From: Flavobacteriaceae bacterium
Lineage (GTDB): Bacteria > Bacteroidota > Bacteroidia > Flavobacteriales > Flavobacteriaceae
Assembly (NCBI GenBank): GCA_029243385.1
Contig: JAQWSC010000008.1
Span: 1-45,611 of the forward strand
DNA length: 45,611 nucleotides
Direction of reading: 5' to 3'
In this document: positions 1,728-15,989 of the stretch, piece after piece
How the letters are laid out: every line of letters starts with the position of its first letter
Numbering within the stretch: position 1 is the stretch's first letter
Notes under the pieces: model-generated
Told to the model about the DNA's origin: nothing
What the model saw: only the letters and a program-made list of their open reading frames with translations
Database searches by the model: none
Made by a program: the position numbers and the translations under genes

Positions 1728-1750
1728 GAAAAGCTTCAAATAATTAATAA

Positions 1751-1779
1751 AAAAAACCTCCACTTGGAGGTTTTTTTTT
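1751..1779. terminator. Bidirectional rho-independent terminator
   Basis: Stem CCTCC-ACTT-GGAGG, extended by an A-run on the left pairing with a T-run of eight or more on the right. The A/T symmetry lets it end transcripts of both convergent neighbours. Confidence 0.85.
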
Positions 1780-1797
1780 ATTGATAAGTCATGAAAA

Positions 1798-2574
1798 TTA
1801 GTTGTCTTTACCAGCCAAATTGAAAGATCCATTTTCAAGATGCCCTACGTGCACATATATTTGATCTTCGTGACTCCCAGAAACCGAACTCCAGAATTTC
1901 TTTCGTGCTTCAACATTAGGGTTTTCTTGAGGCGTAGTGATGGCTTTGGCAAAATCCGTCATGTTGTTAAATCCTCCAAACAGTTGCAAATCAGATCCTG
2001 CGCCTTTGTAGTGAACACTCGCTCCACCACCTAGCTGTAATCCGTCTTTTACCATGGGTCTCGTTTGCCAGTCTAAGTAAGCTGTTGCCATTTCACCAAT
2101 GCTTCCGCTAGTATTGTAGTTCCCAACAACAAAAACAAAAGGAATGTCCCAGTCCACATCTTCTTTAGAAACAAAAAAGTTTTCGTAGTCTATGAATCGC
2201 ATTTCGTCCCAATGCCCGTCAAAAAAAGCCCACCATTGAGTAAATGCTTCGTCCATTTCTTTTTTGGCTTCGTCGGAAAGCTTCTCATAATTTTTTTGAA
2301 AAGCACCTGCAAAATCATCTTTTACAGCGTCTTCAGCAGAATCGTACTGATCATAAATAGCTATCGAAGCTCCTGATCCATACCAATGTCTATACACCCA
2401 TTGTCCTTTAATGGTTCTCTCGTCACTTTGTGACATGTCAGTTACTTTTTTGTGGAGTTCTACAAACTTTCCAATCTGTGTTGGATGAACATCCAAATAC
2501 GTGATTTCAATTACTGACTGAGCCGAAATAAAATAGCTGCACAAAACCGTAATTAAAAGTAATAATTGTTTCAT
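1798..2574 (-). CDS. Exported protein, probable two-domain ferredoxin-like (ABM-type) fold, 258 aa
   Basis: A cleavable signal peptide ends near FISAQ (residue 19). The mature protein seems to repeat a strand-helix-helix-strand pattern: about residues 21-75 (VIEITYLDVHPTQIGKFVELHKK, then WVYRHWYGSGASIAIYDQY) and again from about 145 to 250 (FVFVVGNYN, LQLFGGFNNMTDFAKA, IYVHVGHL). This suits a tandem dimeric alpha/beta-barrel of the antibiotic-biosynthesis-monooxygenase type, but no catalytic residue is diagnostic. It is rich in Trp and Tyr. Monocistronic, convergent with the NTF2-like lipoprotein gene. Function is not known, and the fold call is an inference from the pattern. Confidence 0.6.
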   Translation of the reverse strand: MKQLLLLITVLCSYFISAQSVIEITYLDVHPTQIGKFVELHKKVTDMSQSDERTIKGQWVYRHWYGSGASIAIYDQYDSAEDAVKDDFAGAFQKNYEKLSDEAKKEMDEAFTQWWAFFDGHWDEMRFIDYENFFVSKEDVDWDIPFVFVVGNYNTSGSIGEMATAYLDWQTRPMVKDGLQLGGGASVHYKGAGSDLQLFGGFNNMTDFAKAITTPQENPNVEARKKFWSSVSGSHEDQIYVHVGHLENGSFNLAGKDN

Positions 2575-2703
2575 ATTGATATTTTTAAAGTTGTTATTAT
2601 CGTTAAATATATAACTATTTATTCACTAAAGTGAAAAATAGTAACACATTCAACATAATTTCCCTTAAAAACGCAATAAGAAAGCTGTATTGCTAACTAT
2701 TAC

Positions 2704-5700
2704 TTATTTTTTTATAAACGCACGTGAAATAAGTGTTCCGTCTTGCAAATAGATATTGATATAATAAATTCCAGTGCTTAAATGTTGTACATCCAATTGA
2801 TCTAGATTTCCACCTTTAACCTGGACCGCTTGTCCTGAATTGGATAGCAGTTCGATTTTAATAATTGGATTTTCAGATGAAAGACCGCTAAAATTAATCG
2901 ATGTACTAACGGGATTCGGATATATTAATAACGGTTCGTCGGTATTCGTGTTTGCTGTATTTATTGTAAGAGTCATTGTAGCCGAATAAGCAACATAATT
3001 ATCGTCTTCAGCCTGAAAGGCAGTTACTGTGGTAGCTCCTGGCCCAACAATGATTGCCGTGTTTCCTGATACCGTAGCAATCGCTGTATTATCAACTGTG
3101 TAAGTAAAAGCTCCTGAACTGTTAGAAGAAGCTGTCAACTTAAATGCAGCATCCCCTACTGTTTTTGTTACATCTGAAAAAGTAATTGTCGGGATTTCTT
3201 TTGGATCTTCACAATCTTCGCCCACAACATATTGGAAATATTTTGTCACAACTTGTCCACCAGTGATAGCAAACTTACAGGCATAGCTTATGGTTTGACC
3301 TGTTGTAAAACCTCCAACGGTTTTGCTAAACACATTTCCTCCCTCGGCATTCATAGCACTTTCAGAGAAAGGATCTTCTTTATACAAATACCCAACGGCG
3401 CCTGCTTTGTCGGTATCCAAAAGTTCACAAGTAATTTTGACGCTGCTTCCAATGGTTTCAAAAATCATTTTATAGCCTTGAGAAAATGTTCCCTGTGTGG
3501 ATTCCTTAGAAAAATATTCGCAGGACAGCTTTTGATTTACTGTAATAGAAACGGAACTAGAGGTAGTGATTTCTCCCAAATCGTCGGCTGCCACTGCAGT
3601 TAAACTATGAGTTCCAATCTCAGGATTTAGCCAATCAAAACTGTAGGGAGCGGTACTATCTTGGGCAATTTTTACATCTCCAGCAAAAAATGCTACAGAG
3701 GTTATCTGACCGTCCAAGTCAGAAGCCGATGCATTGATGGTTACCGTGTCGCCTTCAACATAAACCGTATTGTCTGTTGGAGAAGTTATACCTACAGTTG
3801 GCAAAACATTGGCCGTTGACTGAACAATGACGAATACCTCGTCTTTTGCACTGTAGTTATTGTCGGAAATAGAAAGCTCCAGTTTATAAATTCCTTGTTG
3901 GAGATTGCCTATCGAAGATACCAACGCATTTGCATCGGAAAATGTAATTACCGAAGGTCCGAAAACTTGCTTCCACTCAATGGTAGCGTTACTAGGATCG
4001 GGAAGGCTGCTTTGGGAACCGTCAATTTGAGAAGTAGTTTCGGGAATTACAACCACAACATTACTTCCAGCATTGGCAATCAAAGGGTTGTAGTCCAAAG
4101 TACTTTGATATGCAAAAGTCATTTTTCCTAAATTGAATCCTCCGTTTGAAACAACCAATTTAAGGGTATGTTTTCCCTTAACCAATGCTATATTTTGATA
4201 GGTTTTAGACTTCCATTTGTCCCATCCTCCCGAATCCGATACAGTCAGGTTATTGGTTATTTTTTGTCCCGCTATTTCTAGATAAAAGGGACCTCCACTG
4301 TTGTTCTCTGTGGCGTATTCAATCTCTAAGTTATAATATCCCGTTTGTGAAACATCAATAGCATATTCGAGCCACTCTCCTGCTTCTACCCAACCAATGG
4401 TTGCGGTTTGATTTTCATACACAGCATCCACATATTCGTTCGGTCTAAAATTGCCAAATTCGGCTCCATTGTTACCTACGCTCGTATCGTAGTACGAAAT
4501 ATTTTGCCCCAAACCTCCTTCAAAAATATCATAATTTCCGGCTTCAACAACTCCAGGAATCAGGACAGGCTGGGCCAAAAATGGCTTTTGCTCACCCACA
4601 ACAACAGAAATCGAATTGGTGATGGCAAACTCTACGTTTTCATAGACTCTTGCATAAAAATCTTGGAATCCAATATTCAGATTTTCTGCTTTTATTTGAT
4701 AGGGTGCTGATGTGTCGGAACCAACCAACACACCATTGTTGTAAAAATCAACCTTTGTGACGCCTGATCCAAAAGTTGTCACCTCCAGGTTTACACTTCC
4801 ACCGCTGTAGGCTTGATTGAAATCTGAACTGAGCGTTCCGCCTACATTTACATCCCGACTAGTAACTAGTTCTTTGGCGGGAACATCTAAGACAAATCCG
4901 TCCGAAAATGTGACTGAAATAGGTGCGTTTGAATAATTTTGTGCTACGTAGGTGGTTTTTCCTTCATCGGTAAACGCAGCAGCTATAGGATGATTGGCAG
5001 TAATGGAACTATCCACTTTACCAAGTGCTTTCATGCTATGAAGCCAGTAGTAAGTTTGCGCATCAGAAATCCCAAATTTTAAATTGCGATCAGGGTACGA
5101 ATCGTACAATGTGATGGCCAAATCGGGGTTAATAAAAGCCAAATATTCCCAGTAAATGTCGTGCCATAAGTTGGGGTTTTTTTCATTGTTCAATATGCCG
5201 GTATTTTGGGTGATTTCGTTCCAAAGTTTTTCAACATATTCCGTATTGTGCCCCAAATACAAAGACCCTCCATGAATGGGATACATTTCAATACCGTAAG
5301 CAGCGGCAATATCAGCAGTCCAAAATGTTCCACTATCGTACGAGTTTCCCCAAACTCTCGAAGCAACGCTGTAAGGATAGGTGTTCGAAAAAATACGATC
5401 GTTCATATCAAACCAATATTCTTCGACAGCAGATTGTTCGGTAGTGTATAAATAAATCCCCAAGTCTCTAATTGCGTCATTTCCGGTAACCGATCCCCAA
5501 TGAATCAAGGAGGAGTTAAATTGCATACTTTCCGAAGTAGATTCTTGATCGTTTCCTTGAGGAAAAGAGGCAAATCCATTTGCCCAAGCATGACCAGCAT
5601 AGGGACTAAAGTTTCTTAAAAATGGGAACTGGGTGTCATTTCTATTAAAAGAAGCAGCGTCTCTAATGAGTAAATTAACCATATCTCCCCAATCATCTGC

Positions 5701-7086
5701 CCAACCAGGCTCGTACTGCTCTAGGAAAGCTGCCGCATGAATAAAATATCCCCAGTGGAAATGGTGATCATTGATGTTACTGTCTTGCCCATGTCCAGCA
5801 GGATAGCCTAAAAGTGTTGTCCAATCATTGTCGTAATAAAACAAAAAAGCGACTTCTCCTGATTCGTAGCTTAACCAGTCTTCGAGACGTTCTTTTATGG
5901 TGGCTATAATTTTGTTTCTTGCCTCTACATTTCCGGTTTCGTCAGCAATTCGTGCTGTTTGAATCAATCGATTCATCATTTGCCCTTCGTTGTATGAATC
6001 TGTCCAAGTGGCAAGTCCGTCATTTTCCAAAAGCGTAATTTTTTCATCCAAACTGGAAGGATTAAAGCCCTCGCTTTTGAATGCCAAATAGGGAAGTGTT
6101 GGCAAAATTCCCTTAAAAGAATTTTCAACACTGAATGTATTTCCGTCAAGCATTTTGAGTTCTCCTCTAACAGAGGTATAGGTTTCCTTATTGGGAGAAG
6201 GAGAATCGAAAGCTAAGTGTGCCCATTGATGGGGAAGCAATCCTTGAAGCACGGTTGAATGACTGCCTTCCTTGACGTCTGTTTCGATCGTAAAATCGGT
6301 TCTTAAGACACTGGTATTTTCGTTATATGTCCAATTGGCTGAAGTATTAGCTGGGAACACATAAGCGTATTTTTTATACGCTTGCGCAAGTTGAGCTGCG
6401 TTGGTATTGGATTGAGGAAGCATCACTGCAGACCAATAATTTTTATTATTGAGAGAAGAAGTATATACATTCCCGCTTTTATTCCAAGTACTTCCCGCGG
6501 GAGCATATAGTACGTAATCAACATTGTATTGCGCATTTTCAATTAGTAAAACCTCATTATCAATGGTTGCCGTACCCGACTTTACTGCAACCCGAGCAAC
6601 ATCACTAGCTGCTTTTGTAAAATAAACAAAGGGCATTCCAACACCACTGGTAGCTGTAAATTGATGTGAACTGTTTTCCCATGACATTGAAACTGTCCAA
6701 TCGGAGTAATCAGAAACTGTTGCTTTGCTACTGTTTAGACCTTGAACACCAATTTCCACTGATTCTTGATCTCCTATCACACCAAAGGGTATATAAGTCA
6801 TTACCAATCCACTTGTTGTTGTTTTTAGCGTAAGTGGATAATTAAATAAATTACTGACATGATTTTCTTTTAACAAATAAGACCACCAATCGTTAGTAGG
6901 AACCGGTTTGTTTAATGCGTTTCCTGAAATTTGTGGGGATCCGCTAGGTGTTCCATTTCGGCCTGCCTCATCAAGTCCTGGGAAAGTAGTAGAATAACTC
7001 CCGCTTCCAACAGTAGTTTGCGCTATGGATATGGAAATGAATAATTGTAAAAATGTAAAAATAAGAGCTAATTGTCGTGTAATCAT
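2704..7086 (-). CDS. Secreted GH81 endo-beta-1,3-glucanase (laminarinase) with CBM6 and T9SS tail
   Basis: Cleaves beta-1,3-glucan such as laminarin outside the cell. Layout: signal peptide 1-22; GH81 catalytic domain about 27-740, with the family motifs NDHHFHWGYF (Asp440, matching the known general acid) and QGNDQESTSES (Glu515 and Glu519, matching the paired catalytic glutamates); a Big-type Ig module about 760-830; a CBM6 about 836-993; a PKD-like module about 1000-1090; a second Ig-like module about 1095-1184; a Cys-containing module about 1186-1292 that resembles the beta-glucan-binding CBM56 type; a Big_2-like module about 1297-1376; and a type 9 secretion sorting tail about 1385-1460 (PNPVSTSINF to the basic end). 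The gene stands alone, with no SusC/SusD pair in this window. GH81 assignment is strong; the CBM56-like call is tentative. Confidence 0.92.
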   Translation of the reverse strand: MITRQLALIFTFLQLFISISIAQTTVGSGSYSTTFPGLDEAGRNGTPSGSPQISGNALNKPVPTNDWWSYLLKENHVSNLFNYPLTLKTTTSGLVMTYIPFGVIGDQESVEIGVQGLNSSKATVSDYSDWTVSMSWENSSHQFTATSGVGMPFVYFTKAASDVARVAVKSGTATIDNEVLLIENAQYNVDYVLYAPAGSTWNKSGNVYTSSLNNKNYWSAVMLPQSNTNAAQLAQAYKKYAYVFPANTSANWTYNENTSVLRTDFTIETDVKEGSHSTVLQGLLPHQWAHLAFDSPSPNKETYTSVRGELKMLDGNTFSVENSFKGILPTLPYLAFKSEGFNPSSLDEKITLLENDGLATWTDSYNEGQMMNRLIQTARIADETGNVEARNKIIATIKERLEDWLSYESGEVAFLFYYDNDWTTLLGYPAGHGQDSNINDHHFHWGYFIHAAAFLEQYEPGWADDWGDMVNLLIRDAASFNRNDTQFPFLRNFSPYAGHAWANGFASFPQGNDQESTSESMQFNSSLIHWGSVTGNDAIRDLGIYLYTTEQSAVEEYWFDMNDRIFSNTYPYSVASRVWGNSYDSGTFWTADIAAAYGIEMYPIHGGSLYLGHNTEYVEKLWNEITQNTGILNNEKNPNLWHDIYWEYLAFINPDLAITLYDSYPDRNLKFGISDAQTYYWLHSMKALGKVDSSITANHPIAAAFTDEGKTTYVAQNYSNAPISVTFSDGFVLDVPAKELVTSRDVNVGGTLSSDFNQAYSGGSVNLEVTTFGSGVTKVDFYNNGVLVGSDTSAPYQIKAENLNIGFQDFYARVYENVEFAITNSISVVVGEQKPFLAQPVLIPGVVEAGNYDIFEGGLGQNISYYDTSVGNNGAEFGNFRPNEYVDAVYENQTATIGWVEAGEWLEYAIDVSQTGYYNLEIEYATENNSGGPFYLEIAGQKITNNLTVSDSGGWDKWKSKTYQNIALVKGKHTLKLVVSNGGFNLGKMTFAYQSTLDYNPLIANAGSNVVVVIPETTSQIDGSQSSLPDPSNATIEWKQVFGPSVITFSDANALVSSIGNLQQGIYKLELSISDNNYSAKDEVFVIVQSTANVLPTVGITSPTDNTVYVEGDTVTINASASDLDGQITSVAFFAGDVKIAQDSTAPYSFDWLNPEIGTHSLTAVAADDLGEITTSSSVSITVNQKLSCEYFSKESTQGTFSQGYKMIFETIGSSVKITCELLDTDKAGAVGYLYKEDPFSESAMNAEGGNVFSKTVGGFTTGQTISYACKFAITGGQVVTKYFQYVVGEDCEDPKEIPTITFSDVTKTVGDAAFKLTASSNSSGAFTYTVDNTAIATVSGNTAIIVGPGATTVTAFQAEDDNYVAYSATMTLTINTANTNTDEPLLIYPNPVSTSINFSGLSSENPIIKIELLSNSGQAVQVKGGNLDQLDVQHLSTGIYYINIYLQDGTLISRAFIKK

Positions 7087-7240
7087 CAGTGTTTTTTAAA
7101 AAAATTAAAGATATATGAAATAAGAATTTGCAATCCATAAATACACTATACAAAACCTCAACAATACGAGTTTATTAAAAAAGGGAGGCTAAAGCGTTCG
7201 TTTTAGTATCTTTAAAGATTGAATCTTATAATTTATTTCT

Positions 7241-7951
7241 ATGAATCGTATTGTTTTTTTGCTTCTTGTAGTAGTTTGCATAAGTTGTTTGGACGATGAA
7301 AATTATCAATTATTACTTGCCGATAGCTTCCGCGAACGTATAGAAAAAATGGTTTCTCCTACCATTATTGATGTAAGGAGTCCTGAGGAATATGCGCAAG
7401 GACACTTACTAGATGCCTTAAATATCAATTGGAATGACAGAGAGTTTGAAAATCAAGTGGCTGTTTTGGATAGAAACCAACCCGTTTTTGTGTATTGTTT
7501 GAGTGGCGGAAGAAGCTCTAGAGCTTCCAAGAAATTACTAGCGATGAATTTTAAAACCGTTATAGAGTTAAAGGGCGGGATTCTTCAGTGGAGAAAAATG
7601 AACTATGCTGAAAAGAAAATGGGGACACCTCTTGATTCAGGGTTGTCAATTTCGGACTTCAATAATTTGGTAGATTCAGAAAAATTAGTGGTGGTTTCCT
7701 ATTACGCAAAATGGTGTGCGCCTTGTAAAGTAATGAAACCCATATTAGAGGAGATTTCGACAGAAATGAACGATAAAATCAAACTGGTACGAATTGACTA
7801 TGACGAAAACCTAGCCTTGCTGAAAACCCTAGGGATTCATGGCTTGCCTAGCGTTCAATTTTTTTCTAGCAACGAATTGCTGGAATCCAGGCGAGGGTTT
7901 ATGGATAAAAAACAACTTCAAGAGGTTATTGATAGGTTGACAGTAAATTAA
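7241..7951 (+). CDS. Lipoprotein with fused rhodanese and thioredoxin domains
   Basis: Lipoprotein signal with Cys16 (VVCISC), so the protein should sit in the periplasm on a membrane anchor. The rhodanese domain (about residues 25-120) has the active-site loop CLSGGRS with Cys86 and the usual DVRSPEEYAQGHL motif. The thioredoxin domain (about 135-236) has the WCAPC centre (Cys159, Cys162) and the cis-proline loop GLPSV (Pro203). Rhodaneses carry persulfide sulfur and thioredoxins reduce disulfides, so the fusion suggests that the persulfide or an oxidised Cys86 is handled by the neighbouring domain. Both active sites look intact. The partner is unknown. Monocistronic, and divergent from the laminarinase gene. 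Confidence 0.88.
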   Translation: MNRIVFLLLVVVCISCLDDENYQLLLADSFRERIEKMVSPTIIDVRSPEEYAQGHLLDALNINWNDREFENQVAVLDRNQPVFVYCLSGGRSSRASKKLLAMNFKTVIELKGGILQWRKMNYAEKKMGTPLDSGLSISDFNNLVDSEKLVVVSYYAKWCAPCKVMKPILEEISTEMNDKIKLVRIDYDENLALLKTLGIHGLPSVQFFSSNELLESRRGFMDKKQLQEVIDRLTVN

Positions 7952-7981
7952 AAACCATCCTTAAATCCAAGCGAAGCAGGC

Positions 7982-8356
7982 TTATTCTTTGACTAAAAAC
8001 AGCTTTCGATAAATTTCAGTATCCAAAACAGATTGGTATTTGGGTGCAAAGTAATTGCTAAATAACGTTCGGACTGCCTCATTATGGGCATTTTCATATT
8101 CAACATCGCTTTTCCAGGTACTCATCCATAAATAGCGATACTTTTTTACTTGATCACTTTCTTTCACGGCATATATTTTATAGCGATCGGCACCAAATCC
8201 GTTTTCTTCATAAATCGCATTCAGTAGGTCAATATCTTGCTTGAAATCTTGTATGCTCAATGACTCAGGAAGATCAAACATATGAACACTTATGCGTTCT
8301 GCGGATTGCGACATTACAAAAAAAGGGATTGTCAGTAGTAGAAATTTGATGTTCAT
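7982..8356 (-). CDS. Exported hypothetical protein, 124 aa (ABM-like)
   Basis: A signal peptide ends about residue 17 (FFVMSQS). The mature 105 residues show a strand (RISVHMFDLP), a long helix, strands (YKIYAVKES, YRYLWMSTW), a second helix and a terminal strand. This is the order of a dimeric ferredoxin-like fold and resembles half of the 258-residue secreted protein at 1798-2574. No catalytic motif is visible. It is the last of four minus-strand small exported genes. Its start region shares an AAAACCAAT block before the ATG with the next gene upstream, so their promoter DNA may be duplicated. Confidence 0.6.
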   Translation of the reverse strand: MNIKFLLLTIPFFVMSQSAERISVHMFDLPESLSIQDFKQDIDLLNAIYEENGFGADRYKIYAVKESDQVKKYRYLWMSTWKSDVEYENAHNEAVRTLFSNYFAPKYQSVLDTEIYRKLFLVKE

Positions 8357-8361
8357 AACAT

Positions 8362-8412
8362 TGGTTTTATAAATATAAAGAACTAAAAGAGTAAATTATG
8401 CTTATGGTTTAA
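8362..8412 (+). pseudogene. Decayed copy A of a repeated plus-strand C-terminal coding remnant
   Basis: Read on the plus strand, this boundary DNA encodes WFYKYKELKE, then a stop, then IMLMV and a final stop. It lines up with the C-terminal remnants at 9005-9055 and 9597-9650 (LKE, D/I, M, x, I/M, V, stop). An in-frame stop shows it is no longer coding. It overlaps the 3' end of the minus-strand SHOCT-like gene. Confidence 0.45.
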
Positions 8413-8966
8413 TTGTTACTTAAAACAATCTTTTTTAGTGGTTCTGCACTTGTTTCAAATTCATTTTTTGTAATTATTCCTATATCAAGTAATTCCTTTA
8501 ATTTTATTAATTCTTTTCTTGCTTGCTCTTTAGACATAGTGAAATTACCATCTTCATTAGTTATAGTAAAATTTAATGTTACCACTCTACTTTTCATTTT
8601 CATTAGTGCGCCTACAACCAATAAGTCAGTGTTTGGTTTTACAATATTGGGTCGTGTTTCATTTAATAAAGCAAAAGCGCCAATTTCAGCATCAGTTGGT
8701 AAATTAATATTTTGCCTATCAATATTAATAATTTTAAAATTGTAATTATTTAATTTACAAAATTCAATAATCTTGTCTCTTCCAAATTTTTCGAGTTTTT
8801 TATATGAAGTAAATGAAGAGCCTTTTTTGGTAACTTTAATTGTAAATTGAGAATTCCCGGTACTTACTATTTTGTTAAATACATTGTTATTGACTGCTTT
8901 ATTAAAACTTTCGTCTTGTGCAAAAAGAAATGCTGGTGCCATGAGCAATAAAAACAGTTTTTTCAT
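8409..8966 (-). CDS. Exported protein with C-terminal SHOCT-like module, 185 aa
   Basis: Signal peptide MKKLFLLLMAPAFLFAQ. The middle (about residues 35-130) is a mixed alpha/beta domain of unknown family with TIKVTKKGSSFTSYKKLEKFGRD and a DLLVVGALM strand. The last 35 residues (IKLKELLDIGIITKNEFETS) match the short SHOCT pattern: a helix ending in Leu-x-x-x-Gly-Ile-Ile-Thr, then Asn/Glu-Glu-Phe, a module known to mediate oligomerisation. A TACTTTTG promoter box lies 17 nt upstream of the ATG. It lies in a run of unrelated small exported genes separated by repeated remnants. Confidence 0.65.
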   Translation of the reverse strand: MKKLFLLLMAPAFLFAQDESFNKAVNNNVFNKIVSTGNSQFTIKVTKKGSSFTSYKKLEKFGRDKIIEFCKLNNYNFKIINIDRQNINLPTDAEIGAFALLNETRPNIVKPNTDLLVVGALMKMKSRVVTLNFTITNEDGNFTMSKEQARKELIKLKELLDIGIITKNEFETSAEPLKKIVLSNN

Positions 8967-8983
8967 AAAAATTGGTTTTGCAA

Positions 8984-8991
8984 CAAAAGTA
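8984..8991 (-). promoter_or_regulatory. Promoter -7 box TACTTTTG for the SHOCT-like gene
   Basis: Matches the Bacteroidota TAnnTTTG box and ends 17 nt before the start codon. A clear -33 TTG is not visible. Confidence 0.55.
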
Positions 8992-9004
8992 ATTATTTCT
9001 TTTT

Positions 9005-9055
9005 AGAAAATTAGAAGTAGCAGGACTAAAGGAGGCTGATATGCCTATAGTTTAG
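9005..9055 (+). pseudogene. Copy B of the repeated C-terminal coding remnant
   Basis: The plus strand encodes RKLEVAGLKEADMPIV then stop. It aligns with copy C (11 of 17 positions identical, most others conservative), which points to a protein-coding origin. There is no start codon and a stop lies shortly upstream, so this is the 3' end of a lost gene. It overlaps the last codon of the minus-strand TPR gene. Confidence 0.5.
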
Positions 9056-9549
9056 TTACATTCATTTTCTACCCATTGAGGGACTGCAATGTTTTGAATT
9101 TCAGCAGCTTTTCTCCAGTCGTCACAAGAGCCATTTGAGTCACCAAGATTTTTTTTAGAATCTCCTCGTGCCTGATATGCATCATAATCATTGGGTGAAA
9201 TTTCAATGCATTTAGTGTAATCTGAAATTGCACCATAAAAATCCTTTATTCCAAATTTAGAATTTGCGCGGTCAAAATAATAATCCGGGTCATCGGGCTC
9301 AAGTGATATTGCTTGGTTGAAATCAAGAATTGCACCAGCATCATCTCCTAAGCCTGCTTTTGAACCTGCTCTAAAATAATACACAATAGAATACTCTCCA
9401 AACTCTAGAGCTTTTGTGAAATCTGCTATTGCACTATAATAATCTTCTGCTTGAAACTTGTCCAAGCCACTATTGTAATATTCTTCAGCTGTCTGCCCAA
9501 AAGAGCTGAATGAAATTAATAAAGTAAATGTTAGTAATAAGTTTTTCAT
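9052..9549 (-). CDS. Exported tetratricopeptide-repeat protein, 165 aa
   Basis: The start is placed at MKNLLLTFTLLISFSSFGQ, which makes a clean signal peptide, rather than six codons upstream. Three to four TPR units follow (AEEYYNSGLDKFQAEDYYSA, then YFRAGSKAGLGDDAGA, DYYFDRANSKFGIKDFYGA, DAYQARGDSKKNLGDSNG). The protein closes with a short C-terminal segment containing a Cys pair (SCDDW and NECN) that may form a disulfide. TPRs bind other proteins; the partner is unknown. A TACATTTG promoter box lies upstream. Confidence 0.75.
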   Translation of the reverse strand: MKNLLLTFTLLISFSSFGQTAEEYYNSGLDKFQAEDYYSAIADFTKALEFGEYSIVYYFRAGSKAGLGDDAGAILDFNQAISLEPDDPDYYFDRANSKFGIKDFYGAISDYTKCIEISPNDYDAYQARGDSKKNLGDSNGSCDDWRKAAEIQNIAVPQWVENECN

Positions 9550-9564
9550 TATATGTAGTTTATT

Positions 9565-9572
9565 CAAATGTA
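9565..9572 (-). promoter_or_regulatory. Promoter -7 box TACATTTG for the TPR gene
   Basis: Exact TAnnTTTG match, 15 nt from the chosen ATG. Its position favours the downstream start MKNLLL over the upstream ATG, which would overlap the box. Confidence 0.6.
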
Positions 9573-9586
9573 TAAAATATTAGTTT

Positions 9587-9603
9587 AACCTACTTAAGAG
9601 GTT
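9587..9603. promoter_or_regulatory. Inverted repeat AACCT-N7-AGGTT upstream of the TPR gene
   Basis: Lies about 15 bp upstream of the -7 box. Its left arm, AACCTACTTAA, is repeated exactly upstream of the next lipoprotein gene, where it starts a longer palindrome. It could be a shared operator or a shared duplicated promoter region. Confidence 0.35.
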
Positions 9604-9650
9604 TAGAAATGGCTGAACTAAAAGAAGAAGATATGCCTATGGTTTGTTGA
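9597..9650 (+). pseudogene. Copy C of the repeated C-terminal coding remnant
   Basis: The plus strand encodes RGLEMAELKEEDMPMVC then stop. It is the best preserved of three copies, sitting directly against the 3' end of the minus-strand lipoprotein gene. The parent protein is not identified; the ending would suit a small cytosolic enzyme. Confidence 0.5.
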
Positions 9651-9651
9651 T

Positions 9652-10050
9652 TTATTGAAGTGTATAGAAGGCTTCATCTCCTGTTATTAGTATCTGTTTA
9701 ATACTGGTATTTGAGGATTTAATAAATTCATATTTATTAATGATACTGCCTAAAGTGATTTCAATAGAATATCTATTGCTATCTATTTCCTCGTGAACAT
9801 TAGTTTCAAAATTAGAGTCGCCATCGTACATATCCAATAGTGCCTTATTGCAAGATGTAAAAGACGCTATTGTACAGAAGTCATTTGTTTTAAATTCGTA
9901 TCCTACAGGTAACACTTGTCCTGAAATCTCCTGTAAATAAACACCTTGTATCCAAGATGGGGGATTTATGCCAGTCGCGGAATTTGAACCATCATCATTA
10001 CTCGAACAACCTAAAATTAACAAAAAAAAGATTAGTAAAAAGTATTTCAT
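9652..10050 (-). CDS. Hypothetical lipoprotein, 132 aa
   Basis: Signal MKYFLLIFFLLILGC with the lipobox Cys at residue 15 and an SSNDDGSN linker, typical of an outer-membrane lipoprotein in this phylum. The mature part has two Cys about 8 residues apart (FCTIASFTSC) and several beta-strands (NRYSIEITLGSIINKYEFI), compatible with a small lipocalin-like barrel. This is a family-level guess only. The promoter box is almost on top of the ATG, so the mRNA is probably leaderless. Confidence 0.7.
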   Translation of the reverse strand: MKYFLLIFFLLILGCSSNDDGSNSATGINPPSWIQGVYLQEISGQVLPVGYEFKTNDFCTIASFTSCNKALLDMYDGDSNFETNVHEEIDSNRYSIEITLGSIINKYEFIKSSNTSIKQILITGDEAFYTLQ

Positions 10051-10054
10051 AGCA

Positions 10055-10062
10055 CAAATATA
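10055..10062 (-). promoter_or_regulatory. Promoter -7 box TATATTTG, probably giving a leaderless mRNA
   Basis: Only 4 nt separate the final G of the box from the ATG. Transcription in Bacteroidota starts a few nt after this box, so the start codon would be at or near +1. Confidence 0.55.
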
Positions 10063-10084
10063 ACCTACTTAATTATAGTAGGTT
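10062..10084. promoter_or_regulatory. Perfect inverted repeat AACCTACT-N7-AGTAGGTT
   Basis: Eight-bp arms around a 7-nt spacer, directly abutting the -7 box of the 132-residue lipoprotein gene. It shares AACCTACTTAA with the repeat before the TPR gene. Operator is the simplest reading. Confidence 0.45.
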
Positions 10085-10446
10085 TTTCAAAATTAATTTT
10101 TTTCAAAAAGTGCAGCATTTTTAATTTAAAACCGAACATATCTAACCTGTATTCAATTTGTAACTTTATATTGTTTTTAAAGACATAAAAAATATTTAGT
10201 GATTTAAATATATAAACACATATTTAGAATGGCGTCTGAAACGCCTAATTATATTTTTTAGAGTTAATTAGTTAACCACTACCCACCAAAGTTACAAGTT
10301 TTTAAGATATTTTGAAATCAGAAGTTATTAAAGATTTATAGACTTTTTGTTGATAAATCTACAATATAAAAACATTATAAAATTACTTAAACACAACCAA
10401 TACAGTTCCTCTATAAATCACTTTATTTTTAAACTTAACAGGATGT
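10085..10446. other. Gene-free AT-rich stretch
   Basis: About 360 bp with no ORF worth calling. The only structure seen is a small hairpin GGCGT-CTGAA-ACGCC at 10231-10245. It may be the edge of an old integrated element that reaches to tRNA-Asn. Confidence 0.4.
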
Positions 10447-10764
10447 TTAAAGCTTTCTATGACAGCTTCTCTGGGATTGGTTATCAATAGCATCTTCTAT
10501 TTGTTTGTCTGTGTGGTTGTTTAGTTGTTTAAGTATATCTATCTCTAAAACATTTGTAGATTCTATTTCCAAAGGTGCTTTAGAAACTACATAAGGAATT
10601 CCTAATTGAAGTAATTTTAATTGTTGATTAATAGACAACTCATTAATGTCTATAGCGTTTATAGTTTCGTTTAATATAAGGGCTAACTTTTGTTTTACTT
10701 GAATACCAACTTTATTGGGTGTTCCTTTCTTTCGTCCTCCATATTTCTTTCCTGTTGTATTCAT
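10447..10764 (-). CDS. Small protein of mobile-element type, 105 aa
   Basis: Begins MNTTGKKYGGRKKGTPNKVG. The GGRKKGTPNK signature is typical of small DNA-associated proteins found in Bacteroidota prophages and integrative elements (DUF5681-like). The middle is helical (NETINAIDINELSINQQLKLLQLGIPYVVSKAPLEIES), as in those relatives, and the last 20 residues are basic. No neighbouring phage or conjugation gene is present, so it looks like a survivor of a decayed element inserted downstream of tRNA-Asn. Function unknown. Confidence 0.55.
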   Translation of the reverse strand: MNTTGKKYGGRKKGTPNKVGIQVKQKLALILNETINAIDINELSINQQLKLLQLGIPYVVSKAPLEIESTNVLEIDILKQLNNHTDKQIEDAIDNQSQRSCHRKL

Positions 10765-11318
10765 ATCTATTTTAAACTATTTTAGATTTTCTTTCACTTA
10801 AACATCTGCCCCTAAGGGCACTTTCACAGTATGTTCTTCTCCTAACTTCATTAAAAAAGATATTGCTATCTATTAATGAAGAACCCTCCATCAAAATCAA
10901 GGCAGAAAACCTATTCACGCGGTGTCTATTACTACTGACACAGGAAAAACTGCTACGCTTACCCACTTACGTACTCTATTCGAGTTTATTGTGTCAAACC
11001 TTATTGGGAAGTTAAAGGTTTATTATAGAAAATATCTTGGTTTTCTAAACACATTTAGATGATTCTATGTGCCAAGTCTAATCATCTTATTTATATAACG
11101 TAAAGAAAAAGTGATTTTGCGTTTTTGATGAAAAAAAATGACTCCGGAAGCTCAGTCGGATTGGAACAATACGGGTTGGGAAAACAACTAAAAGCGAAAA
11201 GAACAGAAATGTCTGTCAATTGTCTGTCAAATTTTATATGTTTACAGCGTTCTTTGATGTCTTTTAGTATCAAGTGAGGAAATTCTAATACGGGTTTTCA
11301 CAACTGGTTAGAGCGCAT
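10765..11318. other. Gene-poor remnant DNA between the small mobile-type gene and tRNA-Asn
   Basis: No convincing gene. Several structures suggest broken mobile DNA: a 10-bp direct repeat AATACGGGTT at 11168-11177 and 11287-11296; a D-arm-like tRNA fragment CTGGTTAGAGC near 11304; another at about 11148 (GCTCAGTCGG); and inverted repeat GATGATT...AATCATC near 11057-11086. The two short ORFs here have odd composition and no homology signal. Confidence 0.4.
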
Positions 11319-11345
11319 AAAAAAAGGCTTACATCTCTGTAAACC
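11319..11345 (-). terminator. Rho-independent terminator after tRNA-Asn
   Basis: On the minus strand: GGTTTACA-GAGA-TGTAAGCC followed by seven T. The 8-bp stem has one G-U pair. It starts 7 nt past the tRNA discriminator base. Confidence 0.85.
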
Positions 11346-11351
11346 TCTTTG

Positions 11352-11425
11352 CTCCCCCTCAAGGACTCGAACCTTGGACCCTCTGATTAACAGTCAGATG
11401 CTCTAACCAACTGAGCTAAGGAGGA
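11352..11425 (-). tRNA. tRNA-Asn (anticodon GTT)
   Basis: A full cloverleaf can be drawn: acceptor TCCTCCT/AGGGGGA with one G-U; D-arm GCTC...GAGC; anticodon arm TCTGA-CTGTTAA-TCAGA, giving anticodon GTT; and T-arm CAAGG-TTCGAGT-CCTTG. The discriminator is G. The CCA end is not encoded, so it must be added after transcription. It has its own promoter box and terminator. Confidence 0.95.
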
Positions 11426-11443
11426 AGTTGCTTTTAGCGTTGG

Positions 11444-11451
11444 CAAATATA
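11444..11451 (-). promoter_or_regulatory. Promoter -7 box TATATTTG for tRNA-Asn
   Basis: Exact TAnnTTTG match, 18 nt before the mature 5' end of the tRNA. Confidence 0.6.
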
Positions 11452-11491
11452 AACGTTTATTTGATGCTATAAAATAGTTTTGAAAAAATAT

Positions 11492-12811
11492 TTACCCAAA
11501 AATAGCTCGGTAAATATCATTTCCATTGGCAAACAATACCAACGCAATCAACAAGAAAAACCCAAGCATCTGTGCATACTCCATAAATTTATCGTTGGGT
11601 TTGCGACCTGTAATTATTTCATACATCAAAAACATAACGTGTCCGCCGTCCAACGCTGGAATGGGCAATACATTCATAAATGCTAAAATGATCGATATAA
11701 AAGCGGTATTGGCCCAAAAGGCTTGCCAGTTCCACGTAGCTGGAAACAAGTTTCCAATAGCACCAAAACCACCCATTTGAGTAGCTCCTTTTTTGGTAAA
11801 AACATAACTAAACTGGGCTACGTAATCGTGCAATGTCCAATATCCCATCTCAAATCCTTTGGAAATGCTTTCCAAAAAACTGTATTTTAAATGTTGAACT
11901 TTCAAAGTAGTAGGATCAAAACCAATTCCAATCATTTTTTGAGCGTTCAAATCAGAAATAATCGTCACAGACTCGTTTCCTCGAAACACCTCCAAACTAA
12001 CTTGATTTTCTTCCGAAGCCTGAACAATATCTTTCAGTTGCGTATTTGGCGATAAAGGCAATCCGTTAGCTCTCACAATCTGATCACCAACCAATAGCCC
12101 TGCTTTTTCAGCCGGAGAACCAACCCCAACCGAATCCACAATATATTCAATTAACGGAGAAAATGGCGTCATTACGCCTTGTTCAAACATTTGATTTCCT
12201 AACGAAGACGGAACACTCAATGTTTCTGTCAATCCATCCTGGTGGCGTACACGAATTTGTTGAATGTCTCGTAAAAACAAAAATCGATTGATGTCCAAAA
12301 CATTTTCCAACGGCGCTCCATCAACTTCTAAAATTTGATCTCCATCCTGAAAGCCATACGGCTCTATAATCTCAGATACCGCAAATCCCGCAGGTAAATC
12401 GTTTTGAGTAACCACATTTTTACCCCAAACAAACACAATCATCATATAAATCAAAAATCCTAAGACCAAATTAACGGTTACACCGCCCAACATGATGATA
12501 AGACGTTGCCAAGCCGGTTTGGAACGAAATTCCCAAGGTTGAGGAGGCTGTTTCATTTGCTCGGTATCCATACTTTCGTCAATCATACCTGCAATTTTTA
12601 CATATCCTCCCAACGGAAGCCAACCGATTCCATATACGGTTTCACCAATTTTCTTTTTAAACAATGAAAACTTTACATCAAAAAATAAATAAAACTTCTC
12701 AACGCGGGTTTTGAATAACTTTGCTGGGATAAAATGTCCCAACTCATGAAGTACAATCAAGATAGAAAGACTCAAAAGAAGTTGGATGGCTTTAACAAAA
12801 AATGGGCTCAT
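11492..12811 (-). CDS. rseP: RseP-type site-2 zinc metalloprotease, 439 aa
   Basis: An inner-membrane protease that cleaves transmembrane anchors of signalling proteins. The start is set at MSPFFVKAIQLLL because this puts the zinc motif HELGH at residues 22-26 of the first helix, as in the family; the longer in-frame start adds an unlikely 23 residues. Other marks: the GGYVKIAGM loop, two PDZ-like domains (about 145-200 and 225-290, the second with SPAEKAGLLVGDQIVRANG) and the third metal-ligand motif NVLPIPALDGGH near residues 380-391. All catalytic residues are present. Divergent from the SCO1 gene. The partner anti-sigma factor is not in this window. Confidence 0.93.
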   Translation of the reverse strand: MSPFFVKAIQLLLSLSILIVLHELGHFIPAKLFKTRVEKFYLFFDVKFSLFKKKIGETVYGIGWLPLGGYVKIAGMIDESMDTEQMKQPPQPWEFRSKPAWQRLIIMLGGVTVNLVLGFLIYMMIVFVWGKNVVTQNDLPAGFAVSEIIEPYGFQDGDQILEVDGAPLENVLDINRFLFLRDIQQIRVRHQDGLTETLSVPSSLGNQMFEQGVMTPFSPLIEYIVDSVGVGSPAEKAGLLVGDQIVRANGLPLSPNTQLKDIVQASEENQVSLEVFRGNESVTIISDLNAQKMIGIGFDPTTLKVQHLKYSFLESISKGFEMGYWTLHDYVAQFSYVFTKKGATQMGGFGAIGNLFPATWNWQAFWANTAFISIILAFMNVLPIPALDGGHVMFLMYEIITGRKPNDKFMEYAQMLGFFLLIALVLFANGNDIYRAIFG

Positions 12812-12900
12812 AGAATGAATTTCAGATGCCAAAAATACAGTTTTAGTACGGTTTAAAAAAAATAATAAAACAGAAAACAAAAACCCATTAAATTATCCAT

Positions 12901-12908
12901 TATTTTTG
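12901..12908 (+). promoter_or_regulatory. Promoter -7 box TATTTTTG for the SCO1 gene
   Basis: Exact TAnnTTTG match, 19 nt before the ATG. Confidence 0.55.
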
Positions 12909-12927
12909 CAGTTCAAACCGTTGGAAT

Positions 12928-13602
12928 ATGATACAGTTTTTTGAAAAATACAAACGATTTGCAGGCATAATGATTGTTGTTTCTGCCATTATCATCGTCT
13001 TGTTTTACAGAGCATTAAAGCCGATTCCTGTACTTCCTATTTATCAACCTGCCATGGTAGCTACTGAATTGGTTGATGAAGAACTGCAACACATAAAAAA
13101 ATACCACCAAATTGCCGACTTTTCTTTTATCAATCAAAACGGCAAAACAATCACTCAAAATGATTACAAAGGATTTATCTACGTAGCCGATTTTTTCTTT
13201 ACTACCTGTCCGACTATCTGTCCTATAATGACCGACAATATGGTGTTTTTACAACAACAATTGACCGATATTCCCAATGTTAAACTACTTTCTCATACTG
13301 TCACTCCTGAAATTGATTCTGTACCTGTACTCAAAAAATATGCGCTCAAAAAGGGAGTGGATGATAGCCGCTGGAATTTAGTTACCGGTGAAAAAAAAGA
13401 AATCTATTCGTTGGCACGCGCTTCCTATATGGTAGTAAAAACATCCGTAGATGGAGGACCTTTTGATATGATTCACACCGAAAATTTTGTATTGGTTGAC
13501 CCTCAAGGAAGAATTCGAGGCTATTATGACGGCACCCAAACAGAGGCTATGCAAACCCTACTGAACGATATTGATGTTCTGCAGCAGGAACTCAAAAAAT
13601 AA
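12928..13602 (+). CDS. SCO1/SenC-family copper chaperone, 224 aa
   Basis: A membrane-anchored, thioredoxin-like protein that delivers copper to, or reduces, the CuA site of cytochrome c oxidase. It has an N-terminal transmembrane anchor (about 11-28), then the thioredoxin-like domain. The copper ligands are all there: Cys94 and Cys98 in TTCPTICP and His183 in DMIHTENF. The VDPQGRIRGYYDG strand-turn near the C-terminus is also typical. It lies just upstream of feoAB, but with its own promoter and another promoter box between, so co-transcription is not needed. Confidence 0.93.
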   Translation: MIQFFEKYKRFAGIMIVVSAIIIVLFYRALKPIPVLPIYQPAMVATELVDEELQHIKKYHQIADFSFINQNGKTITQNDYKGFIYVADFFFTTCPTICPIMTDNMVFLQQQLTDIPNVKLLSHTVTPEIDSVPVLKKYALKKGVDDSRWNLVTGEKKEIYSLARASYMVVKTSVDGGPFDMIHTENFVLVDPQGRIRGYYDGTQTEAMQTLLNDIDVLQQELKK

Positions 13603-13635
13603 ACAGGATATCATGGTTTATTTATTTCAAAACCT

Positions 13636-13643
13636 TACTTTTG
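13636..13643 (+). promoter_or_regulatory. Promoter -7 box TACTTTTG for feoAB
   Basis: Exact TAnnTTTG match, 29 nt upstream of the feoA start codon. Confidence 0.55.
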
Positions 13644-13672
13644 CTTCTTTAAAATCATTCTAAATAAAGAAG
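13644..13672. promoter_or_regulatory. Inverted repeat in the feoA leader
   Basis: CTTCTTTA-N13-TAAAGAAG fills the whole stretch between the promoter box and the TTG start codon. It could be an operator for an iron-responsive repressor, or an mRNA hairpin whose right arm lies directly on the start codon. Confidence 0.45.
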
Positions 13673-13906
13673 TTGACCCTAGCTGAGTTAAAAAGAGGAC
13701 AAATTGCAGTAATTGAAGAAATTGCTACAGATACCATTCCATTAAAATTGATTGAAATGGGTTGCTTACCAGGAAACACGGTTGAACTCATTCAACTGGC
13801 GCCTTTTAAAGATCCCATGTACTTAAACATTAACGGAAGTCACTTGGCTATTCGACGCGAAACAGCGTTTCATATTACCATCACTTCAAAATCGTCCGAT
13901 GAGTAA
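13673..13906 (+). CDS. feoA: FeoA, ferrous iron transport accessory protein, 77 aa
   Basis: A small cytosolic SH3-like protein that works with FeoB in Fe(II) uptake. It has the usual layout: TLAELKRGQIAVIEEI, then LIEMGCLPGNTVELI and HLAIRRETAFHITI. The start codon is TTG (the protein would begin MTLAEL); no ATG is available upstream in frame before the promoter box, and the length fits the family. The stop overlaps the feoB start by 8 nt, so the two are coupled. Confidence 0.9.
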   Translation: MTLAELKRGQIAVIEEIATDTIPLKLIEMGCLPGNTVELIQLAPFKDPMYLNINGSHLAIRRETAFHITITSKSSDE

Positions 13907-15989
13907 GCGTATCAACGTTGCGCTCATTGGCAATCCCAACACTGGTAAAACTTCAGTGTTTAATGAGCTAACTGGACTCAATCAAAAAGTAGGGAATTAC
14001 CCTGGAATCACTGTTGAAAAGAAAGAAGGAATTTGCAAACTTCAACGCGGGATCAAGGCGCACATTTTAGACCTTCCCGGAACTTACAGTCTCAACGCTT
14101 CTTCACTCGACGAAAGTGTCGTGATTGAATTGTTGCTCAATAAAAACGACAAAGACTATCCCGATGTGGCAGTTGTCATTTCAGAAGTAGAAAACCTAAA
14201 ACGAAACCTTTTGCTGTTTACCCAAATTAAAGATTTGGGCATCCCCACCCTATTGGTAATCAATATGTCGGATAGGATGACAAAAAAAGCAATCTCATTA
14301 GATATTGAACTGCTTGAGGAACAACTCAACACCAAAATCGCACTCGTAAGTTCTCGAAAAAAAACAGGAATTGACACCCTTAAAGAACTTATAATTTCAT
14401 ATAAAACATTATCAACAAAGCCTTGTTTGGATCTCTTTTCGATTGATACGAGTTACTTTGAAGGCTTGAAAAAAACATTCCCCAACCAATCGCTTTACAA
14501 ATTGTGGTTGGTCATTACTCAAGATGTCAATTTTGCCAATGTAGAACGAAAAAAAGTAGAAAGCACCACGGGTTTTATTACCCGATCTACTTCACACCTC
14601 AAGCGGCTACAACAAAAAGAAACCATTAAGCGGTACCAATTTATCAATGCTGTTTTAAAGGAAGCCTATCACGTTGATCCCGAAAATGCAACAGACTTGC
14701 GTTCAAAATTAGATCGGATTCTGATTCATAAATTTTGGGGGTATTTGATTTTCTTTGTGATTCTGTTAACGATTTTCCAAGCCATTTTTGACTGGAGTAG
14801 CATTCCTATGGATTGGATTGATGCTGGATTTGTTGCCATGAGTGAAGCCGTAAAGTCTTCGCTTCCACCAGGAATCTTTACCAATTTATTGGCAGAAGGA
14901 ATCATTCCTGGATTGGGCGGAATTGTGATTTTTATTCCTCAGATCGCCTTTTTATTTATGTTCATTTCTGTTTTGGAAGAAACAGGATATATGAGTCGCG
15001 TGGTATTCCTAATGGATCGTGTAATGAGACGTTACGGGCTAAGTGGAAAAAGCATCGTACCGCTTATCTCTGGAACTGCCTGTGCCATTCCTGCCATTAT
15101 GGCAACTCGAAATATTGAAAATTGGAAAGAAAGACTCATCACCATTTTGGTAACTCCTTTTACCACCTGTTCGGCACGACTGCCTGTATATTTAATTCTC
15201 ATTTCGTTGGTAATTCCGAATCAGCGGTTTTTGGGAATTAGTATTCAAGGACTCACGCTAATGGGACTCTACTTGATTGGTTTTGGAATGGCTATTTTGT
15301 CGGCGTCCATTCTAAATAAAACACTACATATTCAAAGCAAAACATTTTTTGTGGTCGAAATGCCCAATTACAAATTGCCTTTGCTGAAAAATGTAATTCT
15401 CACCATCATAGAAAAAACAAAATCTTTTGTTTTTGAAGCAGGTAAAATTATTTTGGCAATTTCTATTTTATTGTGGGTATTGGCCTCCAATGGTCCGGGC
15501 GAAAAATTCAACAATGCTGAAAAATACGTTATCTCAGCTTCTGTTGAGTCTGCTGATTTCTCAAATGAAGTGGCTGCTTTCAAGCTCGAACATTCTTATT
15601 TGGGATTGGTTGGAAAAGCTATAGAACCGGCAATTGCTCCCTTAGGCTACGATTGGAAAATTGGAATTGCTTTGGTTAGTTCGTTTGCAGCTCGCGAAGT
15701 TTTTGTCGGTACGCTGGCTACTATTTATAATGTGGGAAGTGATGAAGAAAACACCATTAAAAACAAAATGGCTACGGAAGTCAATGCCGCAGGTCACCCT
15801 GTTTTCAATTTGGCTTCGGGGATTTCTTTAATGCTTTTTTATGCCTTCGCTATGCAATGCATGAGCACGCTTGCCATCGTAAAAAAAGAAACTAATAGCT
15901 GGAAGTGGCCAAGCTTGCAATTAGTTATTATGACTTTTATTGCCTACATAACCGCCTTTGGGGCCTACCAAATTCTGAATCAATTATAA
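13899..15989 (+). CDS. feoB: FeoB, ferrous iron transporter, 696 aa
   Basis: An inner-membrane Fe(II) transporter with an N-terminal GTPase. The GTPase motifs are clear: G1 GNPNTGKT (11-18), a G2 Thr near 38, G3 DLPG (58-61), and G4 NMSD (122-125), a slight variant of the common NMxD. A helical GDI-like segment follows, then the membrane part from about residue 280 with the two gate regions (GLGGIVIFIPQIAFLF with the EETGYMSR loop, and LISGTACAIPAIMATR). The protein is complete. Coupled to feoA upstream and, 2 nt downstream, to the Cys-rich partner gene. Confidence 0.96.
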   Translation: MSKRINVALIGNPNTGKTSVFNELTGLNQKVGNYPGITVEKKEGICKLQRGIKAHILDLPGTYSLNASSLDESVVIELLLNKNDKDYPDVAVVISEVENLKRNLLLFTQIKDLGIPTLLVINMSDRMTKKAISLDIELLEEQLNTKIALVSSRKKTGIDTLKELIISYKTLSTKPCLDLFSIDTSYFEGLKKTFPNQSLYKLWLVITQDVNFANVERKKVESTTGFITRSTSHLKRLQQKETIKRYQFINAVLKEAYHVDPENATDLRSKLDRILIHKFWGYLIFFVILLTIFQAIFDWSSIPMDWIDAGFVAMSEAVKSSLPPGIFTNLLAEGIIPGLGGIVIFIPQIAFLFMFISVLEETGYMSRVVFLMDRVMRRYGLSGKSIVPLISGTACAIPAIMATRNIENWKERLITILVTPFTTCSARLPVYLILISLVIPNQRFLGISIQGLTLMGLYLIGFGMAILSASILNKTLHIQSKTFFVVEMPNYKLPLLKNVILTIIEKTKSFVFEAGKIILAISILLWVLASNGPGEKFNNAEKYVISASVESADFSNEVAAFKLEHSYLGLVGKAIEPAIAPLGYDWKIGIALVSSFAAREVFVGTLATIYNVGSDEENTIKNKMATEVNAAGHPVFNLASGISLMLFYAFAMQCMSTLAIVKKETNSWKWPSLQLVIMTFIAYITAFGAYQILNQL

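Follow-up and report, generated by a model that had tools for sequence, protein, structure and literature searches.

Copies of an integrase gene end between small exported-protein genes suggest an integron-like cassette island in a Flavobacteriaceae bacterium

The window analysed here is a contig of 45,611 nucleotides (JAQWSC010000008.1) from a Flavobacteriaceae bacterium. It contains three short plus-strand repeats, at 8380–8411, 9001–9054 and about 9576–9646 (sites 1, 2 and 3), which are copies of the end of a tyrosine recombinase gene, here called int, and which we propose to be the attachment sites of gene cassettes. The original prediction, made from the sequence, described three decayed copies of one protein C-terminus, each at the 3' end of a different minus-strand gene. 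All three copies were confirmed by sequence and searches, and so was their position. The gene at 8409–8966, specifying an exported protein with a SHOCT match under Pfam's cut-off, has the TTA of site 1 as its stop codon, and the gene at 9052 to about 9549, specifying an exported TPR protein, has that of site 2. Site 3 likewise abuts a 3' end, the stop codon of a small lipoprotein gene (9652–10050; open reading frame (ORF) list and sequence) lying 5 bases past it; this protein gave no Pfam match at E≤0.01. The three genes are on the minus strand and each is accompanied by an antisense TANNTTTG motif (8984–8991, 9565–9572 and 10055–10062, respectively), which we take to be the Bacteroidetes-type -7 promoter motif. 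The word "decayed" suits site 1, with its in-frame stop and altered core, and in part site 2, which has lost its left part and retains an intact GATATGCC core; it does not suit site 3, in which core and frame are intact and the frame extends one codon beyond the usual stop.

A search of 60 genomes, comprising the window's own and its relatives, gave matches at E≤0.01 in 14: seven matches in the own genome, 12 in G005 (another genus of the family), one in G046 (E=1.4e-9) and one weak match in each of 11 others. When two candidates per genome were scored, 29 of 397 genomes of the family had a match. In G046 the repeat ending belongs to a complete tyrosine recombinase of 354 amino acids, terminating in ...SLTYLRGLEVAELVEEDMPII, and by sequence comparison the parent of the repeat is the last ~24 codons of this gene, int. 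The repeat begins just ahead of the codon for the presumed catalytic tyrosine (LTYLRG), a role that we take over from the XerD motif, and finishes at the stop codon. The intact parent gene claimed by the original prediction is thus located, and the prediction does not fail for want of one.

One genome per species of bacteria and archaea was then scanned with a three-member alignment, which returned 122 relatives. We retained 79 distinct loci from among them, most of which are labelled as Flavobacteriia or as other Bacteroidetes; L172, L175, L178, L182 and L189 were excluded as probable duplicates of included loci, a decision not made by sequence. In 66 of the 79 loci int is an intact gene reading through to the ending, and in G001, a species of the same genus as the window, it runs off the start of a contig within the repeat. 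The G046 recombinase scored 44.7 bits against PF00589 (Phage_integrase; cut-off 27.1), and R211, K239, R302, H325 and Y334, presumably the catalytic residues, are invariant in 45 aligned members. An AlphaFold model of the recombinase (predicted local distance difference test score 87.3, predicted template modelling score 0.61) is poor at residues 327–340 around the tyrosine. Its best match in the PDB is full-length lambda integrase (1z1g; E=7.3e-9, template modelling score 0.51), and in the model the N-terminal strands and helix resemble an arm-binding domain. A phage or plasmid origin was considered with one int (L058) and rejected: the 10 listed of 20 matching phage records were ~22% identical and two plasmid records 26–27%. 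A scan of viral contigs with P0001 matched 23 stretches, none of which was confirmed.

A profile built from int tails alone and run on the collected loci minus redundant short ones found site 3 (E=2.3e-15) and site 2 (E=3.8e-7), and site 1 was absent from its matches at E≤1. A second profile that included earlier hits, searched over 7000–11500, gave site 1 an E-value of 0.33. Using site 3 as the query in a DNA search of the whole genome, sites 1 and 2 were recovered at E=0.0056 and 4.3e-4, respectively. Site 1 is therefore weak if taken alone; it is supported by this DNA match and by its position, the gene at 8409–8966 stopping at its TTA. A reversed-sequence control yielded 0 matches at E≤0.01 in 1.46 Mb.

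With a profile of the last 86 bases of int (positions h1–h86), 187 sites were found across 102 loci; 77 of them are joined to int and the other 110 are free. Loci and sites with too little flanking sequence were excluded from the counts on int pairs, free-site context, tRNA, and core and boundaries. Over h40–84 the mismatch to the consensus at codon positions 1, 2 and 3 was 17.0, 6.8 and 25.2% in 44 full-length free copies and 16.5, 4.6 and 30.4% in 69 int-linked copies. This is a coding-like pattern and not an equal one at all three positions, in agreement with the coding origin that had been proposed for the repeats. Homology to the int body occurs within 400 bases upstream of six of 109 free copies, which may be parts of broken ints. 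Downstream of int, 44 of 45 free copies share its orientation, and upstream the division is nine to two.

Intervals between neighbouring sites were counted as cassettes if they measured 120–2600 bp, those of <120 or >2,600 bp being excluded. There are 74, with a median of 933 bp and 59 of ≤1,500 bp, and they are mostly single-gene: an ORF of at least 60 amino acids is present in 66 and is antisense to the site in 59 of these. The stop codon of 22 of the 59 antisense ORFs is the terminal TTA of the repeat read backwards. An antisense TANNTTTG motif adjoins 25 of 109 free sites, compared with 75 of 2,200 random windows and two of 77 int-linked sites. By a crude rule, 32 of 66 cassette products have signal-like or membrane-like starts. 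In a sample of 30 of the 67 cassette proteins, 14 matched Pfam at E≤1e-4, although one match, to EF-G_D2, falls short of the cut-off set by Pfam itself, and 16 did not; the domains include TPR, FG-GAP, beta-lactamase-like, cupin, CBS and peptidase M23. Ten cassette proteins compared with PADLOC for defence cargo gave no match at E≤1e-3. In L043, L044, L045, L058, L092, L095 and L185, cassette genes whose bodies are unrelated often start with almost identical signal peptides (MKKLILLLLFIPLVSFGQ), as though the leader moved with the site ahead of different genes.

The 8-bp core of the site, GATATGCC (h70–77; codons Asp-Met-Pro), occurs unchanged in 70 of 76 int-linked sites and in 87 of 108 free ones. 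Other 8-mer starts in the last 86 int bases reach at most 63%, and at most 47% outside h71–73, where the 8-mers overlap the core. The right arm TATGGTTTA, which reads Met-Val-stop one way and gives a stop codon the other, is found in 46 of 108 free and 23 of 76 linked copies. Past the core the int endings vary (MPMV, MPII, MPKV, MPNIL, MPMVYSSE and others).

The place of the joint was sought in sites that share DNA on one side. In six pairs (nine sites) sharing the right-hand cassette only, mismatch is 61, 56, 43 and 28% approaching the core, 2% within it and 0–4% after it. In 16 pairs sharing the left side only (22 sites; 15 pairs involve int), it is 6–11% ahead of the core and 2% within it, rising to 26% at h78–86 and 62–67% further on. 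A 1.04-kb cassette is 98.4% identical in L095, where it adjoins int, and in L174, from another assembly and perhaps a related species, and its flanks differ in the two; identity begins at the core on the left and stops at the core on the right, and the L095 int ending MPMVYSSE lies inside it. Among the int pairs listed (45 of 130), 15 share at least 90% identity over their last ~460 bases. The 200 bases that follow the gene are nevertheless unrelated in 14 of these pairs, with an identity of 0.34 or less, and match at 0.70 in the remaining one. Since the pair mismatches shift at the core and one cassette also ends there, the DNA was probably joined at the core, and a cassette most likely spans the distance between one core and the next, as one site-specific crossover predicts. 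A first model, with the crossover right after the catalytic tyrosine, had been proposed because codon constraint in the free copies is relaxed left of ~h39. It was dropped since the shared-cassette pairs place the joint at h70–77, and the relaxed stretch is now taken to be the end of the left arm that matters less.

Transfer RNA (tRNA) sequence is found no more than 250 bp from the start of int in 65 of 74 cases, compared with two of 185 random windows. It is antisense to int in 55 of the 65, mostly as 3' fragments of varied length, some nearly whole. In the 10 loci where it is in the sense orientation (L065, L066, L084, L085, L089, L095, L097, L116, L121 and L131) it is mostly the 5' part, and the island can be reversed relative to the tRNA. 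Antisense tRNA is also present downstream in 21 of 43 loci with 5 kb of downstream sequence, and where both tRNA ends are in view they are of the same amino-acid type (18 of 18 loci). With the integrase beside a tRNA and the same tRNA type at the other end, the int elements have the sequence features expected of tRNA-inserted genomic islands. The ending of contigs soon after int (21 of 79 within 1 kb) was considered as a sign of repeats and not used, the contigs being short on both sides.

In the window, the stretch 7925–11348 is replaced in G001 by an unrelated 5.3 kb. Using blastn (E≤1e-3), G001 matches the window at 1736–7924 (81%) and 11349–14234 (88%) with nothing between; it is collinear through 7924 and again from 11349 on, and none of five island proteins was found at the G001 locus by tblastn. 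The presumed target is a tRNA-Asn gene on the minus strand (11351–11425; ARAGORN, Rfam), where synteny with G001 restarts and whose 3' end is the right edge of the island. A tRNA-Asn fragment was sought at the left edge and not found, so that the window retains the intact tRNA alone. A minus-strand gene for a 105-amino acid protein (10447–10764) serves as a marker common to other islands of the same type: tblastn found relatives at E<1e-8 in eight loci (L107, L067, L101, twice, L108, L120, L190, L176 and L110), and in all four loci showing both int and the downstream tRNA it sits between them, antisense to int. Because the tRNA-Asn and marker gene are present and G001 is collinear outside and unrelated inside, we read this stretch as an island remnant without int.

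The remnant also contains a small exported-protein gene (7982–8356, minus strand; ORF list) within the variable stretch, at whose 3' end the profile search found no repeat site. Just upstream of the lipoprotein gene, at 10062–10084, is an inverted repeat, AACCTACTTAATTATAGTAGGTT, which includes AACCTACTTAA, like the left arm of the site. It is possibly a fourth, worn site or a terminator, and is absent from the profile's matches. On the plus strand at 11302–11318 there is a tRNA D-arm-like stretch, AACTGGTTAGAGCGCAT, just past a terminator-like sequence after the tRNA-Asn gene. The genome of the window (1.69 Mb, 15 contigs, 99% complete) has four further good DNA matches to site 3. One is on contig C6 and three are at the end of contig C12, where copies and small units alternate until the contig stops inside a repeated unit; at this end (L015, 7066–7430) a cassette for a 59-amino acid membrane-like protein is tandemly repeated, and it recurs in L064 and L094.

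We propose that the window probably contains what is left of an integron-like island inserted at a tRNA gene, with the last ~24 codons of int serving as the attachment site. The parent, the arrays and their orientation, the conserved core, the few shared-cassette boundaries and the tRNA setting can all be read from the sequences; int performing the exchange would be the simplest explanation of them. In the proposed mechanism int, with its predicted lambda-integrase-like fold, would sit at one end of such islands, and the site would consist of a left arm of ~57 bp, the 8-bp core GATATGCC and a right arm of ~9 bp, usually TATGGTTTA. A cassette would comprise the core and right arm, usually one gene reading towards the start of the site, and then its own copy of the left arm. 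A single crossover within the core, with int doing the cutting, would insert or remove a circular cassette, at int or between cassettes. Read backwards, the right arm could give the cassette gene its stop codon, and the cassette genes may carry their own promoters. Since the core encodes Asp-Met-Pro close to the C-terminus, int would receive its last residues and stop codon from the cassette joined to it. Free tails are closer to the int of their own locus (0.862) than to other ints (0.786; 20 loci, 37 tails, with 0 of 2,000 label shuffles reaching this); together with the codon-like pattern, this suggests that sites stay matched to the int by which they have to be recognised. Free sites in L114, L077, L112, L071, L117 and L116 have their own recurring left part, unlike that of int (e.g. 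AATCTACAATATCTCTACTCC in L114). In integrons, too, the two kinds of site, attI and attC, can differ, as int-linked and free sites do in these lineages.

Several observations weigh against this proposal. Within the stretch covered, at least one free copy was present in 30 of 79 int loci and at least two in 13; among int loci having at least 3 kb downstream, 23 of 49 had at least one. The codon-like pattern in the left arms of free copies is not predicted by a crossover at the core alone, because such arms would not be translated. No common core is visible between the tRNA fragments and the cassette site, and therefore one enzyme may not act on both. No int was found in the window's genome, where a protein search at E≤10 gave tails alone, though C12 ends within an array. 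The position of the crossover depends on few shared cassettes; the boundary pairs share sites and are not independent, and their limits were chosen once looser ones had been inspected (6 and 151 pairs). Only one free-site pair, that of L095 and L174, shows a clean right-hand end, and L174 has a worn site on the left, none on the right, and a further 148 bp nearby at 84%. The bodies of the 59-amino acid protein cassettes in L015, L064 and L094 are near-identical and their right-hand sites differ at h33–69, and the L068 int tail differs from two relatives more than the immediately preceding DNA does. There must therefore be additional exchange within the left arm, and a single fixed crossover is insufficient.

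Exchange within the left arm (h33–69) and not at the core alone, seen in some shared cassettes and int tails, favours another explanation, in which ordinary homologous recombination acts between repeats of ~70 bp that are old duplicates of integrase tails. The likeness of free tails to the int of their own locus is also what gene conversion would yield. We nevertheless consider it unlikely that this accounts for the arrays: where the boundaries are best resolved, the cassette begins and ends at the same 8-bp core, the core is conserved in int genes beyond the neighbouring codons, and the copies behind int keep one orientation. As a matter of general knowledge, 70-bp repeats are also short for such exchange.

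The copies could instead be what remains of several complete islands that inserted at one tRNA and then decayed until their integrase ends were left. The islands do lie at tRNA genes and can be tandem, as in L101 with two int-type tails and two tRNA-Ala, the window lacks int, and the six free copies preceded by int-body homology would suit such decay. The remaining 103 of 109 have no int body within 400 bases upstream, the units are mostly single genes, of which 22 of the 59 antisense ones stop at the TTA of the site, and one cassette was found in two assemblies with different flanks. This explanation, already weakened by these results, is very improbable. The 103 copies also tell against the first of the two interpretations in the original prediction, tandem duplication of an ancestral gene followed by replacement of its body, which is further disfavoured by the best-resolved shared cassette having both boundaries at one spot within the repeat. 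The second, repeated insertion of cassettes at one site, essentially matches the evidence. Treating the copies as mere remnants is incomplete, as the free copies elsewhere that retain an exact core (87 of 108) look like usable sites, so that overall the earlier interpretation is partly supported.

Integrons consist of a tyrosine recombinase and head-to-tail, mostly single-gene cassettes, each ending in a site, and arrays lacking a recombinase exist. The loci described here are similar in having a recombinase beside an array of mostly single-gene cassettes and sites, and arrays without one also occur. That they are true integrons whose attC sites happen to resemble the integrase end is, despite the single-gene cassettes, repeated sites and adjoining tyrosine recombinase, scarcely credible, given that three of the proteins scored 14.8–21.3 bits against TIGR02249 (integron-integrase; cut-off 265), that six sites (eight folds, no attC covariance model) fold no better than shuffles (z from -1.68 to 0.26), and that the site is inside the 3' end of int with cassette genes pointing at int. 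An attC-like hairpin at the site was rejected by the same folding test. In integrons attI is upstream of intI and the genes read away from it, whereas here the site, at the 3' end of int, is part of its coding sequence and 59 of 66 ORFs run against the direction of the site. Further differences are the resemblance of the recombinase model to full-length lambda integrase, the promoter-like motifs adjoining some sites, and the location of the island at a tRNA gene. Because the IntI score, the folding of attC and the arrangement all differ, we do not class the system as an integron.

Archaeal suicidal (SSV-type) integrases also have the recombination site inside the integrase gene, but here the core is a few codons from the end and each cassette would bring a replacement ending. 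Splitting or inactivation of int, as in that group, was not observed: 66 of 79 tails are intact, and different DNA lies behind near-identical ints in 14 of the 15 pairs noted above among those listed. The nearest bacterial precedent is the integrase of Myxococcus phage Mx8, in which attP lies inside int and integration gives a new 3' end; int stays active, its end being replaced and the enzyme not inactivated (PMC6070905). The portion of that paper available to us deals with a phage and two neighbouring chromosomal sites, and describes no cassettes or array of site copies (PMC6070905). Tycheposons of aquatic bacteria are tRNA-bordered islands with a tyrosine recombinase and cargo genes, and differ in that no cassette array on integrase ends is described in the part of the source available (PMC10872708). 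A classification of tyrosine recombinases (PMC8138268) and an account of integron sites in phages, including a Polaribacter phage (PMC9892861), concern other systems as far as their accessible parts go. In such parts of the open-access literature no description of cassettes built on integrase ends was found, and the system looks like an undescribed counterpart of the integron.

We lean towards the view that this is a second, independently evolved bacterial gene-cassette system, in which the recombinase gene itself ends in the recombination site. To our knowledge, integrons are the only well-known platform collecting single-gene cassettes. If the proposal is true, each cassette start restores the last codons and stop of int, so that the enzyme survives, slightly rewritten by every capture, and one short stretch of DNA has three roles, as the crossover site, as protein code on one strand and, on the opposite strand, as the stop of the captured gene. 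It would also mean that, with a different enzyme and different site rules, cassette capture arose more than once. An enzyme that stays functional while the end of its own gene is cut and exchanged becomes a testable idea, and GATATGCC behind an integrase tail offers a search handle to many unknown secreted and membrane proteins. Such a system could account for part of the gene turnover in small-genome Flavobacteriia.
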